From positions 124,001-188,000 of the forward strand of contig CAJAHH010000010.1 of the NCBI GenBank assembly GCA_903939515.1: 64,000 nt of DNA, given 5' to 3'. This document shows positions 26,250-35,014 of this stretch, piece after piece. The translations under genes were made by a program, and so were the position numbers. The notes below the pieces were generated by a model that was not told where the DNA came from, did not search any database, and was given only the letters and a program-made list of their open reading frames with translations. The stretch is from an uncultured Verrucomicrobiota bacterium. Its GTDB lineage: Bacteria > Verrucomicrobiota > Verrucomicrobiia > Limisphaerales > UBA9464. Within the stretch, counting starts at the first letter, position 1. Each line of letters opens with the position of its first letter.

Positions 26250-26513
26250 TTAGTTGCAACCGCAACCGCCCCCGCCCACTCCGCGTCCGCCGGCCGCTGC
26301 CTCACGGCTAAACCACATGTGTTCGGCCAGTAACAACCCTGCCGGATCCCGATCTCCGCGCATCGTTGCATCCGACAGCGTGCGACGCTGCCATGGCTCA
26401 ACGGTAGAACAACCCGTGCCCAAGGCGATAATGACCGCAACGGCCGCCAACACCATCCCACCCGGACGGGAGGAACAGGCTGGTTGAAGGGGGAGTAGAT
26501 TTTTGACGCTCAT
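26250..26513 (-). CDS. DUF4266 small lipoprotein-like protein, C-terminal GGGGCGCN
   Basis: ALGTGCSTVEPWQRRTLSDATM...LLLAEHMWFSREAAAGGRGVGGGGCGCN. Confidence 0.85.
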   Translation of the reverse strand: MSVKNLLPLQPACSSRPGGMVLAAVAVIIALGTGCSTVEPWQRRTLSDATMRGDRDPAGLLLAEHMWFSREAAAGGRGVGGGGCGCN

Positions 26514-26533: not shown

Positions 26534-27073
26534 TTAGGCTTTAACCGTTTTTAGGAGGCGTTCGATGATTTCAACGTACTTCTTGCGGGTAGCTTCCCCT
26601 TCGTACTTGGGATGCACCGAATCGAGACGCCCCTCCGGTCCGAAGAAGTAGGAGGTCGGCATCCCGGGAGGGCGAACCTTGGAGGCCAGCTTTTCCTGGG
26701 CATCGCGCACGGTCGCAAAACTCACCGAGTTCTTCTTGAGGAAGCGATCCATGTCCGGTTGCCGCTCGTCCATGGAAACGCCGATGAGCACATATCCCCT
26801 CGACCCATAGGTTTTGTGGAGGTTTTCCAACACGGGGAAGGACTGACGACAGGGCACACACCATGAGGCCCAGAAATCGAGGTGAACCACCTTGCCGGAA
26901 AGGTCTGGCACGGTGCCTTCGAGCTGCAGGCTCTTGAGGTCCGGAAGGGTGTCACCGGGCTGAAGCCCTGCCGCCCAGCCCAGCGGAATCGTGGCCATCA
27001 GCGCCATCCCGGCGGCCGAAGTTCGCAGGAATTGGCGGCGTGGCAGGGAGATTTCAAGAGGCGACATGTTCAT
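26534..27073 (-). CDS. TlpA-family thiol-disulfide oxidoreductase
   Basis: DFWASWCVPCRQSFPVLENLHKTYGSRGYVLIGVSMDE; MNMSPLEISLPRRQFLRTSAAGMALMATIPLGWA export signal. Confidence 0.92.
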   Translation of the reverse strand: MNMSPLEISLPRRQFLRTSAAGMALMATIPLGWAAGLQPGDTLPDLKSLQLEGTVPDLSGKVVHLDFWASWCVPCRQSFPVLENLHKTYGSRGYVLIGVSMDERQPDMDRFLKKNSVSFATVRDAQEKLASKVRPPGMPTSYFFGPEGRLDSVHPKYEGEATRKKYVEIIERLLKTVKA

Positions 27074-28082
27074 AAAATCGGCGACTGCTGAGTTTGGATT
27101 GAGGTCCGTGGAGAAGTCCCTCGGCCCCCGGTTGAGATTCGATGAGACGGAGACCTTCGTCGGGCCCCAGCACGAGGGCCGCGGTGCTGAGCATGCCCGC
27201 CAGGGTGCAACTTGGGGCCAGCACGTGCACAGCCCGGCACCCGTTTTGGACTGGACGCCCTGTGCGCGGGTCGAGGATGTGTCCCCAGCGCTTGCCTGCT
27301 GCATTGAAGCCCCGATGGTAATCCCCCGAGGTGGCCACGGCCGCATCCCGGACAGCCAGACCACACCAAGCCTTTCCCGGCTGATCGGGGTCTTCGAGCC
27401 CGAGGTGCCAACCCGGGCGACCATCGGCTGGCAACCCCATCACCCGGATGTCGGCTCCGAAGTCCACCAAGGCCCCGGTCAGTCCGCACTGACGCGCCAA
27501 AAGGGCTACCTGATCCACCGCGTACTCCTTGCCCATGCCACCCAGATCCAAGCACATCCCTGGGTCACTCAATCTCACCGAACCCGGCTTGCGCTCCACC
27601 TTTCGCCAACCGACACACTGGCGAGCGGCTTCGATCTGTGGGTCGGTGGGAATTTGTGCCCGACGCCAATCCCACAATTGAATGAGAGGCAACGCGGTGG
27701 GATCAAACACACCGCGGGTCAAAAAATGCATCTCGTGGCACAGCGCCAAAATCCGGTCGATCTCCGGATCGGAAGCCACCGCGGCACCGCCGGCTGATGC
27801 GTTGAGAACAGAGATCCAACTATCGGTCAGGAATCGGGAATACTTGGCCTCAAAGGCCGCCAACCATCCCAATGCCTCGCCATCGAAACGGCGGATCGCC
27901 TCCGGCGAACCCACCGTAACCCACCGACACGTGGTACCGAGAGCCATGAAGTGCAATTCCCGACCGCCATCGGTTGGCGACTCCTGACACGACTCCCGAA
28001 TCCGGCGAAGGACCGCCGAAGCATTCCCCCGGACCACGGTCGCAGGCGCCGGTTCGCTGGATTGGACAGGGGCGCTCACCAT
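27054..28082 (-). CDS. apbE: FAD:protein FMN transferase (ApbE family)
   Basis: DLGGMGKEYAVDQVALLARQCGLTGALVDFGADIRVMG; AAVATSGDYHRGF; HILDPRTGRPVQNG. Confidence 0.93.
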   Translation of the reverse strand: MVSAPVQSSEPAPATVVRGNASAVLRRIRESCQESPTDGGRELHFMALGTTCRWVTVGSPEAIRRFDGEALGWLAAFEAKYSRFLTDSWISVLNASAGGAAVASDPEIDRILALCHEMHFLTRGVFDPTALPLIQLWDWRRAQIPTDPQIEAARQCVGWRKVERKPGSVRLSDPGMCLDLGGMGKEYAVDQVALLARQCGLTGALVDFGADIRVMGLPADGRPGWHLGLEDPDQPGKAWCGLAVRDAAVATSGDYHRGFNAAGKRWGHILDPRTGRPVQNGCRAVHVLAPSCTLAGMLSTAALVLGPDEGLRLIESQPGAEGLLHGPQSKLSSRRFYEHVAS

Positions 28083-29338
28083 TGGAAACCAATACCCATC
28101 GTGAAGACATTTGCCTGGGGGTAAGCCGACGACAAGGTCACGCCATCGAGGCCTTGCATGAGGTAGCGCTTGTAGGCCAGGTCCACAGAAACATGCTCAT
28201 GCACTTGCCAGTGAATGCCAACTCCCAGCGTCCACGTCTCGAGGTGGCTCAGGCGGTAATCCGCCGAATAATACTGGGGCCACGCGGGCACTGACAAAAC
28301 ACGCCCATCCCCGGGGAACCCGGGCTCCCCATCAAAAATCAGACTTCCATCGGACTGCAGGGCCGCGTTCACGCCGTTGGGATCCACCAACGTCCCGTTG
28401 AACACAGGCGCGTAGAAGTCGGCCGCTGACTGGACGTGGTAGCGCAGCATTGGGGAGATCACGAGTTTCTCTCCGACCTTCTGGTTCCACTGGACTGCCG
28501 CGGTGTTGGCCCAAATGCCCCAGTCGTCGTGGTGGAGGCGGTAGTTGGCGTCGACGCTGCCATTGAGCGCGCTCACGAAGTGGGTGATCCCGAGATACCC
28601 CACCTGCTTAATGCGTTGATTCGGGCGATTCTCACCGACTGATGCCGAGGGATCCGAGTTGTAGCCCTCGACCGGAAAGTCGTACTGGAAGTGAACCCCC
28701 TTGTACGGGTCCGTTAGATAGCCATCAGCCACGCCCACGGTCAAATTGGCCGTCAAGTACGTGTTGGGTCCCAGCAACTGGGTCACCCCCAAGAGACCGT
28801 CCCAAGTGTCCTTGTCTTTCCACAGCGTCTTATTGGCCAACCAGAAGCCGGTGACCTGGTCGAAATTGCGCGACAAACCCAGATTCAAAATCGTGTTCTT
28901 CTGGTTGAACTCGATGCTCTCATTCAGGGAAAGACCGATAGAGCGGTAATCACTCTCTTCGCTGTACGAAAGTTGGGGGCGCGTGATGAAGCGACCGGCG
29001 GTGAGGTCGAGTTCAACGGAGCCAGCACGACGGATGTCCTGGAAGTTCTGAAGCGGCAAACGATCGGTTCCTGGCGCGGCGGCCGCCCCGGTCGGGGTCG
29101 CTCCCGAGATGCCATCGTAAACGAAGTTTGCTTTTACCACCGCCTTGGCGTTCAAGGCCTGTTCGGCATAAACCGCGTGGGTCCGGATGTGGATCCGATC
29201 GTTGTCCTCGATATAGTCCTCGTAGCGGTAATCCACCCGGTTCTCAGCACGAGCACGGACCAAGGAAACGCAGTGCAGCAATAAGGCAGTCAGGACGGGG
29301 CTGATTCGGGCCATCAGGCACCGGGACCACGGAGGCAT
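28076..29338 (-). CDS. DUF3570 outer-membrane beta-barrel-like protein with ApbE-type flavinylation motif
   Basis: start MPPWSRCLMARISPVLTALLLHCVSLVRARA signal; ENRVDYRYEDYIEDNDRIHIRTHAVYAEQALN; DGISGATPTG; C-terminal MGIGFQW; overlaps apbE by 7 nt. Confidence 0.85.
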   Translation of the reverse strand: MPPWSRCLMARISPVLTALLLHCVSLVRARAENRVDYRYEDYIEDNDRIHIRTHAVYAEQALNAKAVVKANFVYDGISGATPTGAAAAPGTDRLPLQNFQDIRRAGSVELDLTAGRFITRPQLSYSEESDYRSIGLSLNESIEFNQKNTILNLGLSRNFDQVTGFWLANKTLWKDKDTWDGLLGVTQLLGPNTYLTANLTVGVADGYLTDPYKGVHFQYDFPVEGYNSDPSASVGENRPNQRIKQVGYLGITHFVSALNGSVDANYRLHHDDWGIWANTAAVQWNQKVGEKLVISPMLRYHVQSAADFYAPVFNGTLVDPNGVNAALQSDGSLIFDGEPGFPGDGRVLSVPAWPQYYSADYRLSHLETWTLGVGIHWQVHEHVSVDLAYKRYLMQGLDGVTLSSAYPQANVFTMGIGFQW

Positions 29339-29461: not shown

Positions 29462-30325
29462 TCATCCGGAGATCGGACTTGGCAGTGGGGACGGCTGCAA
29501 GTCCGGGTTAGGCGCGGAGTTAGGCATCGGGATCGCTAAACGGTCCAATACTCGAGCGGCGGCAGCAAAACCGAAGGTGCCGGTCACCTGAGTGGCTGAG
29601 CCGAAGCCGGATTCACAGTTGAGCCGCAGGGGCATTTCGTTGTCCGAGGCGCGGGTCGCGCAAACTTGGCCGTCACGGTCCGGAAAGACCGGAGCCTCGG
29701 CCGAATGAACACAGTCGATGCGCAGTTTTTTAGCAGTTCTCGAAAACCCGTGCTTCTGGCGGAGGCGCTTGCGCACTTCACTCAACAACCGGTCGTGCGT
29801 CACGGTGGCCAAATCGGCGACTCGAACCGCGGTCGGATCACGGCGTCCGCCGGCCCCGCCGCACACCACCAACGGAATCCCGGCACCGTGACACAAGGCG
29901 ATCAACCGCACCTTGTTGGACATGGCGTCGATGGCATCCACTACGAAGTCCGGGCGGTCTTCGGAACCGAGACCGGTCTCCAGTCCCAACAGGCGCGACG
30001 CCGTATCGGCCGTGAAAAACTCCACCCGGCCTTCCACCCGAGCCTCTGGGGAAATGGCCCGAACCCGTTCCGCCATGACTTCCACCTTGGACCGTCCCAC
30101 CGTGGAATCCAGCGCATGCAACTGCCGGTTGATGTTGCTGACGCACACGTCGTCGAGATCGACCAAGGTGAGTCGACCTATCCCCGAACGGGCGAGCGCT
30201 TCTACCACCCAGGAGCCCACGCCGCCAATGCCGATCACTAGAACGTGCGCGGCGCGAAACCGGCTCAATGCGGCCGCCCCGTAAAGCCGTGCTATCCCTC
30301 CAAATCGGAAGTCAAAATCACTCAT
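29462..30325 (-). CDS. tcdA: tRNA threonylcarbamoyladenosine dehydratase
   Basis: MSDFDFRFGGIARLYG; VLVIGIGGVGSWVVEALARSGIGRLTLVDLDDVCVSNINRQLHA. Confidence 0.95.
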   Translation of the reverse strand: MSDFDFRFGGIARLYGAAALSRFRAAHVLVIGIGGVGSWVVEALARSGIGRLTLVDLDDVCVSNINRQLHALDSTVGRSKVEVMAERVRAISPEARVEGRVEFFTADTASRLLGLETGLGSEDRPDFVVDAIDAMSNKVRLIALCHGAGIPLVVCGGAGGRRDPTAVRVADLATVTHDRLLSEVRKRLRQKHGFSRTAKKLRIDCVHSAEAPVFPDRDGQVCATRASDNEMPLRLNCESGFGSATQVTGTFGFAAAARVLDRLAIPMPNSAPNPDLQPSPLPSPISG

Positions 30326-30569
30326 GATCGAAATGCCCCACTGGCAAAACATTCAGGTCAAGGCACCCCATCCGTCGATCCGGATCCCTCGGACCCCAGG
30401 GCTCTGCTCCCGAGCAAAGTACTCCAAGTTTCGGAGACGTTCATGAACCCGCTGGAGAGTGAGCCTTGCCGTGCGCACGAAGCAAATCAGGGAACTCCAA
30501 TGAGTTCCCTGATCGAAGCCGGATGCCCTAGGCCACCCGAAAGCCATACCGTTCAGAATCTGCGGAAAA

Positions 30570-33398: not shown

Positions 33399-34430
33399 TC
33401 AGACCGTCGGCAACCTCAGCTGCAAAGACAACAGTCCGAGGACAGCCTCTGTCTTCAGCAACCAGACCCGACGTGGCGGCAAGGGCTCTTGATCGGTCAA
33501 TCCCAATAGAGCAACAACCCCCAGAGTGCAGGCTCCGACAATCCATGTCCGCCGCCCGGTCCGAAACCGAGCGATGGCCTGAATGCGATGGACCAAGGAT
33601 CGTGGGGCCGCCGAGGGGTCTCCCTGCCACGCGACAGCGACTCGATCGGTTTCCAAGCCTGAGGCTCTCTCCAAGCACTTCAGAAGGACCTGCCCGTACA
33701 ACACTTTGCTGACACGGTCCGCCGACAATGCGTGAACGTCACACGCTTCTTCGCGATCTTCACGCCATCGCTGCAGAATCCAGCCCACCACCGGGTTGAA
33801 CCAATGCACGGTTCGCACCGTTTCCAGCAGCACGTTCAGCCAAAGGTCGCGACGACGGAGATGGGCTATCTCATGGAGAAATATCAGACGAATCTCCTTC
33901 TGGGAAAACTGCTCCCCTAGGTTGGGAGGCACCAGCAGGCACGGCTGGATTAATCCCGCCAGACACGGACCCCCCACTTCCTGGGATTGCCGGATGGGAA
34001 CCCGGCGCATGGATATCGGCTCTTCCCGGATGGCCTCATTCCAAAGGTCCACCAAACTCGATTGTGCGGACTGCGAGCGAGCGATCCTTTGTTGAAGCCG
34101 CGTCCAATCCGACATCACCCAAGCAACTCGGACGACCATGCCTGCGGCCCATGCCGCGAGGCACCAACGCCATCCGTCGATAGGAAAAGACCCAGCAGTA
34201 ATCGTTGGAAACAACGGAGCGGTGACATTAAAGAGGCTCACCGGAGAAGGGATTTCCCAGGGCCACACCAACCGCGCCAACACCAAACCGCTCAGGATTA
34301 ACCGCCAATCGGGTGAAAGGTGCCGCCGAAGCAACCGTCGCACTCCAAGCACGAAAATTCCCAGCACTGCCGCATTGGCGGAACCGCTTATCAAATCCCA
34401 CCCCAGATTACGAATAACCTCCGGACTCAT
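33399..34430 (-). CDS. M56/BlaR1-like membrane metallopeptidase
   Basis: LIFLHEIAHLRRRDLWLNVLLETVRTVHWFNPVVGWIL (HExxH). Confidence 0.9.
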   Translation of the reverse strand: MSPEVIRNLGWDLISGSANAAVLGIFVLGVRRLLRRHLSPDWRLILSGLVLARLVWPWEIPSPVSLFNVTAPLFPTITAGSFPIDGWRWCLAAWAAGMVVRVAWVMSDWTRLQQRIARSQSAQSSLVDLWNEAIREEPISMRRVPIRQSQEVGGPCLAGLIQPCLLVPPNLGEQFSQKEIRLIFLHEIAHLRRRDLWLNVLLETVRTVHWFNPVVGWILQRWREDREEACDVHALSADRVSKVLYGQVLLKCLERASGLETDRVAVAWQGDPSAAPRSLVHRIQAIARFRTGRRTWIVGACTLGVVALLGLTDQEPLPPRRVWLLKTEAVLGLLSLQLRLPTV

Positions 34431-34473
34431 GTCAGAACGTCTCTGACATAGCAGGTTGCTTGCCTAGCTTCGC

Positions 34474-34851
34474 TTACTCGGAGGTTTCGGATTCCAGAAT
34501 CCGACGCAACTCGCTGATCTGAGCCTTGGAGAGCTTTCGGCTCTCAACATAGTGAGCCATCATCCCGGGGAGGGATCCGCCAAAGACGCGGTCTAGAAAG
34601 GATCGTGTGGCTGCCGAGACGCACTCTGCTTCGGACACCTTTGCGCTGTAGTGATAAATCCGACCAATGGATTCGTAGCTCAAGGCGTCCTTGCGAACGA
34701 GTCGATTGAGCAAGGTCTTGGCGGTGACCGCCATCCAGGTGGGATCCTCCTTTTGGAGTTGGAAAATCACATCCGCGGAGGTCACCGGATGTCGTTTCCA
34801 GACAATCCGCATGATCTCCCATTCCGTCTCTGATATACGGGGTAAGGGCAT
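34474..34851 (-). CDS. BlaI/MecI/CopY-family transcriptional regulator
   Basis: MPLPRISETEWEIMRIVWKRHPVTSADVIFQLQKEDPTWMAVTAKTLLNRLVRKDALSYE; paired with M56 peptidase. Confidence 0.93.
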   Translation of the reverse strand: MPLPRISETEWEIMRIVWKRHPVTSADVIFQLQKEDPTWMAVTAKTLLNRLVRKDALSYESIGRIYHYSAKVSEAECVSAATRSFLDRVFGGSLPGMMAHYVESRKLSKAQISELRRILESETSE

Positions 34852-35014
34852 GACGTCTCCATCAAACGGTAACGAGGGGCTGAATGACCCATCGCTACTG
34901 CCGTGCCCAACCATTGTCAATCGGGGGTTCCCGATATTTCACCTAGAAGATCCAAGGCGGCCAGACGCTCTTAGAACTAGGGTGCAGATTACCCAAGAAA
35001 ACCTCCAAACCGAT

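Follow-up and report, generated by a model that had tools for sequence, protein, structure and literature searches.

The locus and its gene cassette

The window analysed here, that is, the whole stretch of 64,000 nucleotides from contig CAJAHH010000010.1 of an uncultured Verrucomicrobiota bacterium, carries on its minus strand a four-gene cassette encoding a DUF3570 protein, an ApbE, a thioredoxin and a DUF4266 protein. The genes and the features that delimit the DUF3570 frame are as follows.

28076..29338, minus strand: DUF3570 gene, outer-membrane beta-barrel (PF12094 match, AlphaFold barrel and structural matches)
29246..29338, minus strand: predicted Sec-type signal peptide of DUF3570, MARISPVLTALLLHCVSLVRARA and then ENR (judged from sequence, without a signal predictor)
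28076-28078, minus strand: DUF3570 stop codon TGA
27054..28082, minus strand: apbE (FAD:protein FMN transferase family), leaderless (PF02424, E 3.3e-67)
about 26534..27073, minus strand: TlpA/ResA-like thioredoxin (WCVPC), start inferred (PF13905, E 1e-15)
26250..26513, minus strand: DUF4266 lipoprotein with the glycine-rich C-terminal tail GGRGVGGGGCGCN (CxC) (PF14086, E 7e-18)

The first gene matches the DUF3570 profile PF12094 with an E-value of 2.1e-65 and 221.6 bits, against a curated cut-off of 25. Its start is uncertain; ATG 29336-29338 or ATG 29312-29314 is likely, and the listed GTG start is doubtful. Cleavage of the signal peptide is predicted after RARA, between VRARA and ENRVDY, which makes the codon at 29243-29245 the first of the mature protein (E1). 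At the other end of the gene, the apbE start (ATG 28080-28082) overlaps the DUF3570 stop by 7 bases. A TcdA-like tRNA ct6A synthase of the ThiF family lies directly upstream of the cassette (29462-30352, minus strand; 292 bits, slightly below the NCBIfam cut-off of 304), and a BlaR1-type M56 peptidase and penicillinase-repressor pair occupies 33399-34920 on the same strand.

Across Verrucomicrobiota, and also in a plasmid record of Vibrio, the cassette is retained, with apbE, thioredoxin and DUF4266 directly downstream of DUF3570 in nearly all loci. Protein searches of plasmids returned DUF3570 relatives from Vibrio and Hymenobacter only. The thioredoxin CxxC is kept in 47/47 cassette relatives, and the CxC tail of DUF4266 in 52 of 53, the lone exception ending at the edge of its locus. 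No DsbD adjoins the cassette within the window; a DsbD-like gene is found elsewhere on the same contig (C10:215714), and DsbD lies directly downstream of the cassette in three other loci (L045, L047 and L095, the last being the Vibrio record).

Several further features of these genes were observed. In the window thioredoxin and its closest relatives the signal is Tat-like, with PRRQFLRT (27022-27073, minus strand), while it is of Sec type in most other cassettes. The DUF4266 tail, GGxGVGG[GS]GCGCN, is conserved far above what a mere linker would need. Two complete cassettes stand about 10 kb apart at L080 and at L054/L094 (genomes G181 and G169), the motif of one copy being DAIVGATPNG.

The acceptor motif and its conservation

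The putative site of FMN attachment comprises two features.

29096..29116, minus strand: flavinylation motif DGISGAT in the DUF3570 frame, mature residues 44-50
29096..29098, minus strand: codon of the acceptor Thr, residue 114 of the ORF and T50 of the mature protein (S or T in 50/50 relatives)

The minus-strand translation of the DUF3570 frame around the motif reads NFVYDGISGATPTGAAAAPG, the codon of the Asp being 29114-29116; motif and Thr codon were both found where the original prediction had placed them. Dxx[ST]GA[ST] arose by chance in 58 of 20,000 shuffles of the mature DUF3570 sequence and is absent from every other long ORF within the window. There is one [ST]GA[ST] site in this protein, the next Thr-Gly-Ala (TPTGAAA) being without an acceptor.

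Loci encoding DUF3570 were drawn from 387 genomes of the phylum, 42 of them with a match, and from genome contigs. In the 50 aligned relatives, about ten of which nearly duplicate the window protein, so that counts refer to sequences and not to independent events, the acceptor column holds T in 43 and S in 7, and nothing else. Positions G5, P8 and G10 of DGISGATPTG are invariant. Conservation of the motif holds in full for the acceptor and only in part for the strict pattern: just 24/50 relatives satisfy Dxx[ST]GA[ST], because position 1 (D in 41, N in 9), position 4 (S, T, A or V, with A or V in 14) and position 6 (S in 3) vary. The aligned proteins have no conserved Cys.

The site is kept with or without an adjacent apbE. 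Three loci (L044, L065 and L082) have no apbE beside DUF3570, and the same special type of apbE occurs elsewhere in each of these genomes. The possibility that motif and apbE linkage were gained and lost together was rejected, the unlinked loci keeping the motif. The proposed likeness to NqrC and RnfG extends to the motif and not to the domain; no match to FMN_bind (PF04205) was found in the window DUF3570 protein, and searches for other substrate families, FMN_bind and DUF2271, gave no protein in its genome.

Covalent flavinylation of the family has direct experimental precedent. Meheust et al. described in 2021 gene clusters of apbE, DUF3570, thioredoxin and DUF4266, with or without DsbD, and counted 316 clusters without it (PMC8238504). 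The DUF3570 protein of C. luteolum was flavinylated by its ApbE, and Ser-to-Ala substitution at both of its motifs was needed to abolish the modification (PMC8238504). Since both the flavinylation and the cassette were thus published, the basic claim is already established for the family. In combination with the conserved acceptor, that experiment makes flavinylation of the window DUF3570 well supported. The prediction of an ApbE-type acceptor site in a DUF3570 outer-membrane barrel beside apbE is likewise supported.

The family also includes divergent members. In a distant subfamily (L086-L090), DxVSSAS stands at the place of the motif and a second site, [QT][ST]GAS, follows slightly downstream. 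In five DUF3570 proteins (L050, L051, L052, L067 and L077), a long insert of low complexity interrupts the outer loop that follows strand 3. It brings a further site-like sequence, AGATP (e.g., WAKAGATPA), which may be another flavin site on an extended extracellular arm. Frames split by a frameshift or stop, with intact neighbours, occur in L048, L072 and L096, and DUF3570 of Hymenobacter DG25B is annotated as two genes.

Fold of DUF3570 and position of the site

An AlphaFold2 model of DUF3570, computed from 49 sequences after two plasmid-record rows were left out, has 16 strands, a pLDDT of 92.9 and a pTM of 0.87. Its long connections follow strands 3, 7, 9, 13 and 15 only and are all on one side. 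The even strand number and the aromatic C-terminus (FQW) are those of an outer-membrane barrel, and every structural match listed is a barrel of the outer membrane, among them BamA (Z 22.4), PelB (21.2) and BcsC (18.7), which align over nearly the whole model with an rmsd of 3.3-4.2 over 258-288 residues. A second model, made for L087 of the distant subfamily with a pLDDT of 88.6, likewise shows 16 strands, and both of its sites lie in the connection after strand 3.

When sides are assigned by the usual rule, with the barrel termini periplasmic and the long loops outside, the acceptor Thr is predicted where strand 3 ends on the extracellular side, not at the periplasmic mouth. The original prediction, which placed the site near the mature N-terminus and took this as a possible position of FMN at the periplasmic mouth or plug of the barrel, therefore holds for the sequence (mature residue 50) and is not supported in space: the N-terminus forms strand 1 in the model and not a plug, and the acceptor is put on the extracellular side. 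Strand parity, applied without coordinates, would place D44, I46, G48 and T50 on the same side as K38 and N40, which is taken to face the lumen. Of 55 outer-lumen positions 18 have low entropy, as against 2 of 54 inner-lumen positions, and the entropies of the two halves differ (p = 1e-7). The outer loops DPYK, ENRP, QSAADFY and YSADYRLS are conserved and structured.

The charged cavity, which is conserved, and the outer loops, conserved and structured as they are, could also belong to a protein in which FMN at the outer mouth serves sensing, gating or the capture of a metal or substrate in place of outward electron transfer. The constant linkage to thioredoxin and to DUF4266 with its CxC, and in some loci to DsbD, points instead to a supply of electrons, and a sensing, gating or capture role is considered quite improbable.

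The predicted position also bears on how the flavin could be attached. Because the folded barrel would hide a Thr at its outer mouth from an ApbE in the periplasm, attachment must precede folding. Burial had been named beforehand as grounds for discarding the site. It does apply to a folded barrel facing a periplasmic ApbE, and it leaves flavinylation itself unrefuted because ApbE can act on unfolded DUF3570; on coexpression, most of the C. luteolum protein ended up in the insoluble pellet, and after purification under denaturing conditions it still bore flavin (PMC8238504).

The linked ApbE: absence of a leader and altered metal site

The ApbE encoded next to DUF3570 differs from ordinary members of its family at both its N-terminus and its active site. 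The two altered residues are located as follows.

27525..27527, minus strand: Glu186 of ApbE (GKEYAVD), Gly in ordinary ApbEs, adjoining the match of the Mg2+ ligand E169 of E. coli Ftp (PMC4767422)
27195..27197, minus strand: Gly296 of ApbE, where E. coli Ftp (D280; PMC4767422) and FmnB (Asp301; PMC8906456) have the metal-binding Asp

The N-terminus of the window ApbE, MVSAPVQSSEPAP, leads into the ApbE core, and the window sequence contains no ATG, GTG or TTG upstream of ATG 28080-28082 in the open apbE frame. Neither a clear signal peptide nor a lipobox was found in the linked ApbE of about 48 main-clade loci. By the best hydropathy of 12 N-terminal residues, the linked main-clade ApbEs reach at most 1.8, as opposed to 1.9-3.5 in the 29 scorable ordinary ApbEs of the phylum and 1.9-2.8 in those of the distant DUF3570 subfamily; the measure is crude, 39/50 DUF3570 proteins reaching 1.8 by the same rule. 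The leader is not missing throughout the DUF3570 family: this generalization was rejected, the linked ApbEs of L087-L090 and Hymenobacter having a signal peptide and an intact Asp.

A leaderless ApbE beside an exported substrate suggests that FMN is attached in the cytoplasm. The same barrel could also be flavinylated in the periplasm, before the BAM step, either by an exported ApbE or by the linked ApbE exported in an unconventional manner. The genome does encode two further ApbEs, one of them with a lipobox-like leader of the lipoprotein type (contig C82), and in the distant subfamily the linked ApbE itself has a signal peptide. Yet the linked enzyme is leaderless in about 48 main-clade loci, with no upstream start in the window, and it is the one type kept together with DUF3570 even where the genes are unlinked. 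Periplasmic attachment is thus regarded as unlikely, and attachment in the cytoplasm is the preferred reading.

The active-site changes accompany the missing leader. The Gly that follows Lys in (A/G)KGY is Glu in 49/49 linked ApbEs and is kept in 31/31 controls; the metal-binding Asp is Gly in 49/49 linked ApbEs and remains Asp in 30/31 ordinary ApbE controls. The pair of changes therefore separates the groups completely (49/49 versus 0/31). Aligned on E. coli Ftp, the window ApbE has Gly296 for D280, Ser299 for D283 and Thr300 for T284. A supported branch (98/91; 99/95 without Vibrio) sets the linked ApbEs apart, the long-branched one of Vibrio included, and the Vibrio enzyme likewise has both changes and no leader. 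Another leaderless ApbE, about 7 kb from DUF3570 in L133 (G283:C51), has GKEYAAD and a different sequence at the Asp site, DSGGLAT; it is possibly a further variant.

In E. coli Ftp, E169 is a ligand of the second Mg2+ (PMC4767422). Both Mg2+ ions of FmnB have Asp301 as a ligand, and the enzyme loses most or all of its activity when its Mg2+-binding residues are substituted (PMC8906456). The linked ApbE lacks exactly this Asp, which counts against the mechanism favoured here. It may have lost FMN transfer and retained another role, such as FAD cleavage or a chaperone function, with the DUF3570 motif kept for the structure of the barrel; the presence of Gly in all 49 would fit, as would the Ala or Val at motif position 4 in 14/50 relatives and the retention of the G-x-T-P-x-G part. 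Against such a loss stand the catalytic Ser and His, retained in 49/49, the Glu that adjoins the E. coli Mg2+ ligand position in 49/49, and a DUF3570 acceptor that is always S or T. The C. luteolum ApbE, ABB24423.1, was moreover active on its DUF3570 (PMC8238504), although it may not be of the same ApbE class. Overall, a transfer-dead ApbE appears improbable, somewhat more so than attachment in the periplasm, and an active cytoplasmic enzyme is retained in what follows.

Proposed mechanism and its significance

The absence of an export signal and the altered metal site of ApbE indicate that the flavin may be attached inside the cell. The neighbouring leaderless ApbE would attach FMN to unfolded DUF3570, most probably ahead of Sec export and within the cytoplasm; the FMN-bearing chain would then pass Sec and be folded into the barrel by BAM. 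After folding, the FMN would sit where strand 3 reaches the extracellular side, turned towards a charged and conserved cavity in the outer lumen.

The thioredoxin CxxC, the DUF4266 CxC and the DsbD that adjoins some cassettes suggest a relay in which electrons would run from a DsbD-type membrane thiol carrier to the periplasmic thioredoxin, on to the DUF4266 lipoprotein, and from there to the FMN and an acceptor outside the cell. Between the periplasm and a single FMN at the outer mouth lies a long distance, which the relay could bridge only with the DUF4266 tail or another carrier; the flexible, glycine-rich CxC tail may enter the barrel and reduce the FMN, which could then pass its electrons to an acceptor outside. 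The first part of this relay follows the earlier proposal (PMC8238504); the lumenal arm and an acceptor outside the cell are additions suggested here.

The chances of the central reading, a 16-stranded barrel with one FMN on Thr114, attached before folding by the leaderless ApbE, fed by a thiol relay and reducing an acceptor outside, are judged to be about even. Put in its more general and more demanding form, it would have a whole clade of leaderless ApbEs with swapped metal ligands flavinylate the barrel precursor in the cytoplasm, with Sec and BAM carrying the flavin to the extracellular mouth of a haem-free conduit fed by a CxC arm; this is put forward more tentatively, with the balance leaning against it. 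The literature searched describes covalent flavinylation by exported ApbEs acting on periplasmic or membrane proteins, or by cytoplasmic ApbEs acting on cytoplasmic proteins. If true, the modification of an exported outer-membrane barrel by an ApbE of the cytoplasm would follow a different logic, with the cofactor first and export second.

Comparison with known systems

The closest known system is that of Meheust et al., the sole match when 5.39 million papers were searched for DUF3570, which has the same family, the same cassette and the same kind of acceptor motif as the window (PMC8238504). It differs in that C. luteolum DUF3570 has two [ST]GA[ST] motifs and the window protein one, and the main text makes no mention of a barrel, of the location of the site, of a leaderless ApbE or of the change at the metal site (PMC8238504). 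A barrel with its flavin site at the outer mouth, together with a clade of leaderless, ligand-swapped ApbEs, therefore looks new, no description having been found in the literature searched.

With ApbE, Ftp and FmnB (PF02424), the window ApbE shares the whole domain, the catalytic Ser and His and the DPRTG motif. Unlike them, it lacks the signal peptide or lipobox, which is usual though not universal, it has Gly for the metal Asp and Glu for the Gly of the AKGY loop, and it belongs to a clade of its own (99/95). ApbEs that act in the cytoplasm on substrates residing there are known (PMC12052999). That of Klebsiella pneumoniae has, like the window ApbE, no signal peptide; it modifies a soluble fumarate reductase of the cytoplasm, whereas the substrate in the window has an export signal (PMC12052999).

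The FMN_bind proteins NqrC and RnfG (PF04205) have the acceptor motif Dxx[ST]GA[ST] in common with the window DUF3570, and their fold is unrelated to it. In porin-cytochrome conduits such as Mtr, electrons cross the outer membrane by way of a barrel. These conduits use haems, whereas the route proposed for DUF3570 would rely on a covalent flavin on the barrel itself and on thiol carriers; if true, a barrel with a flavin at its outer mouth would provide Gram-negative bacteria with a haem-free path for electrons to the outside.
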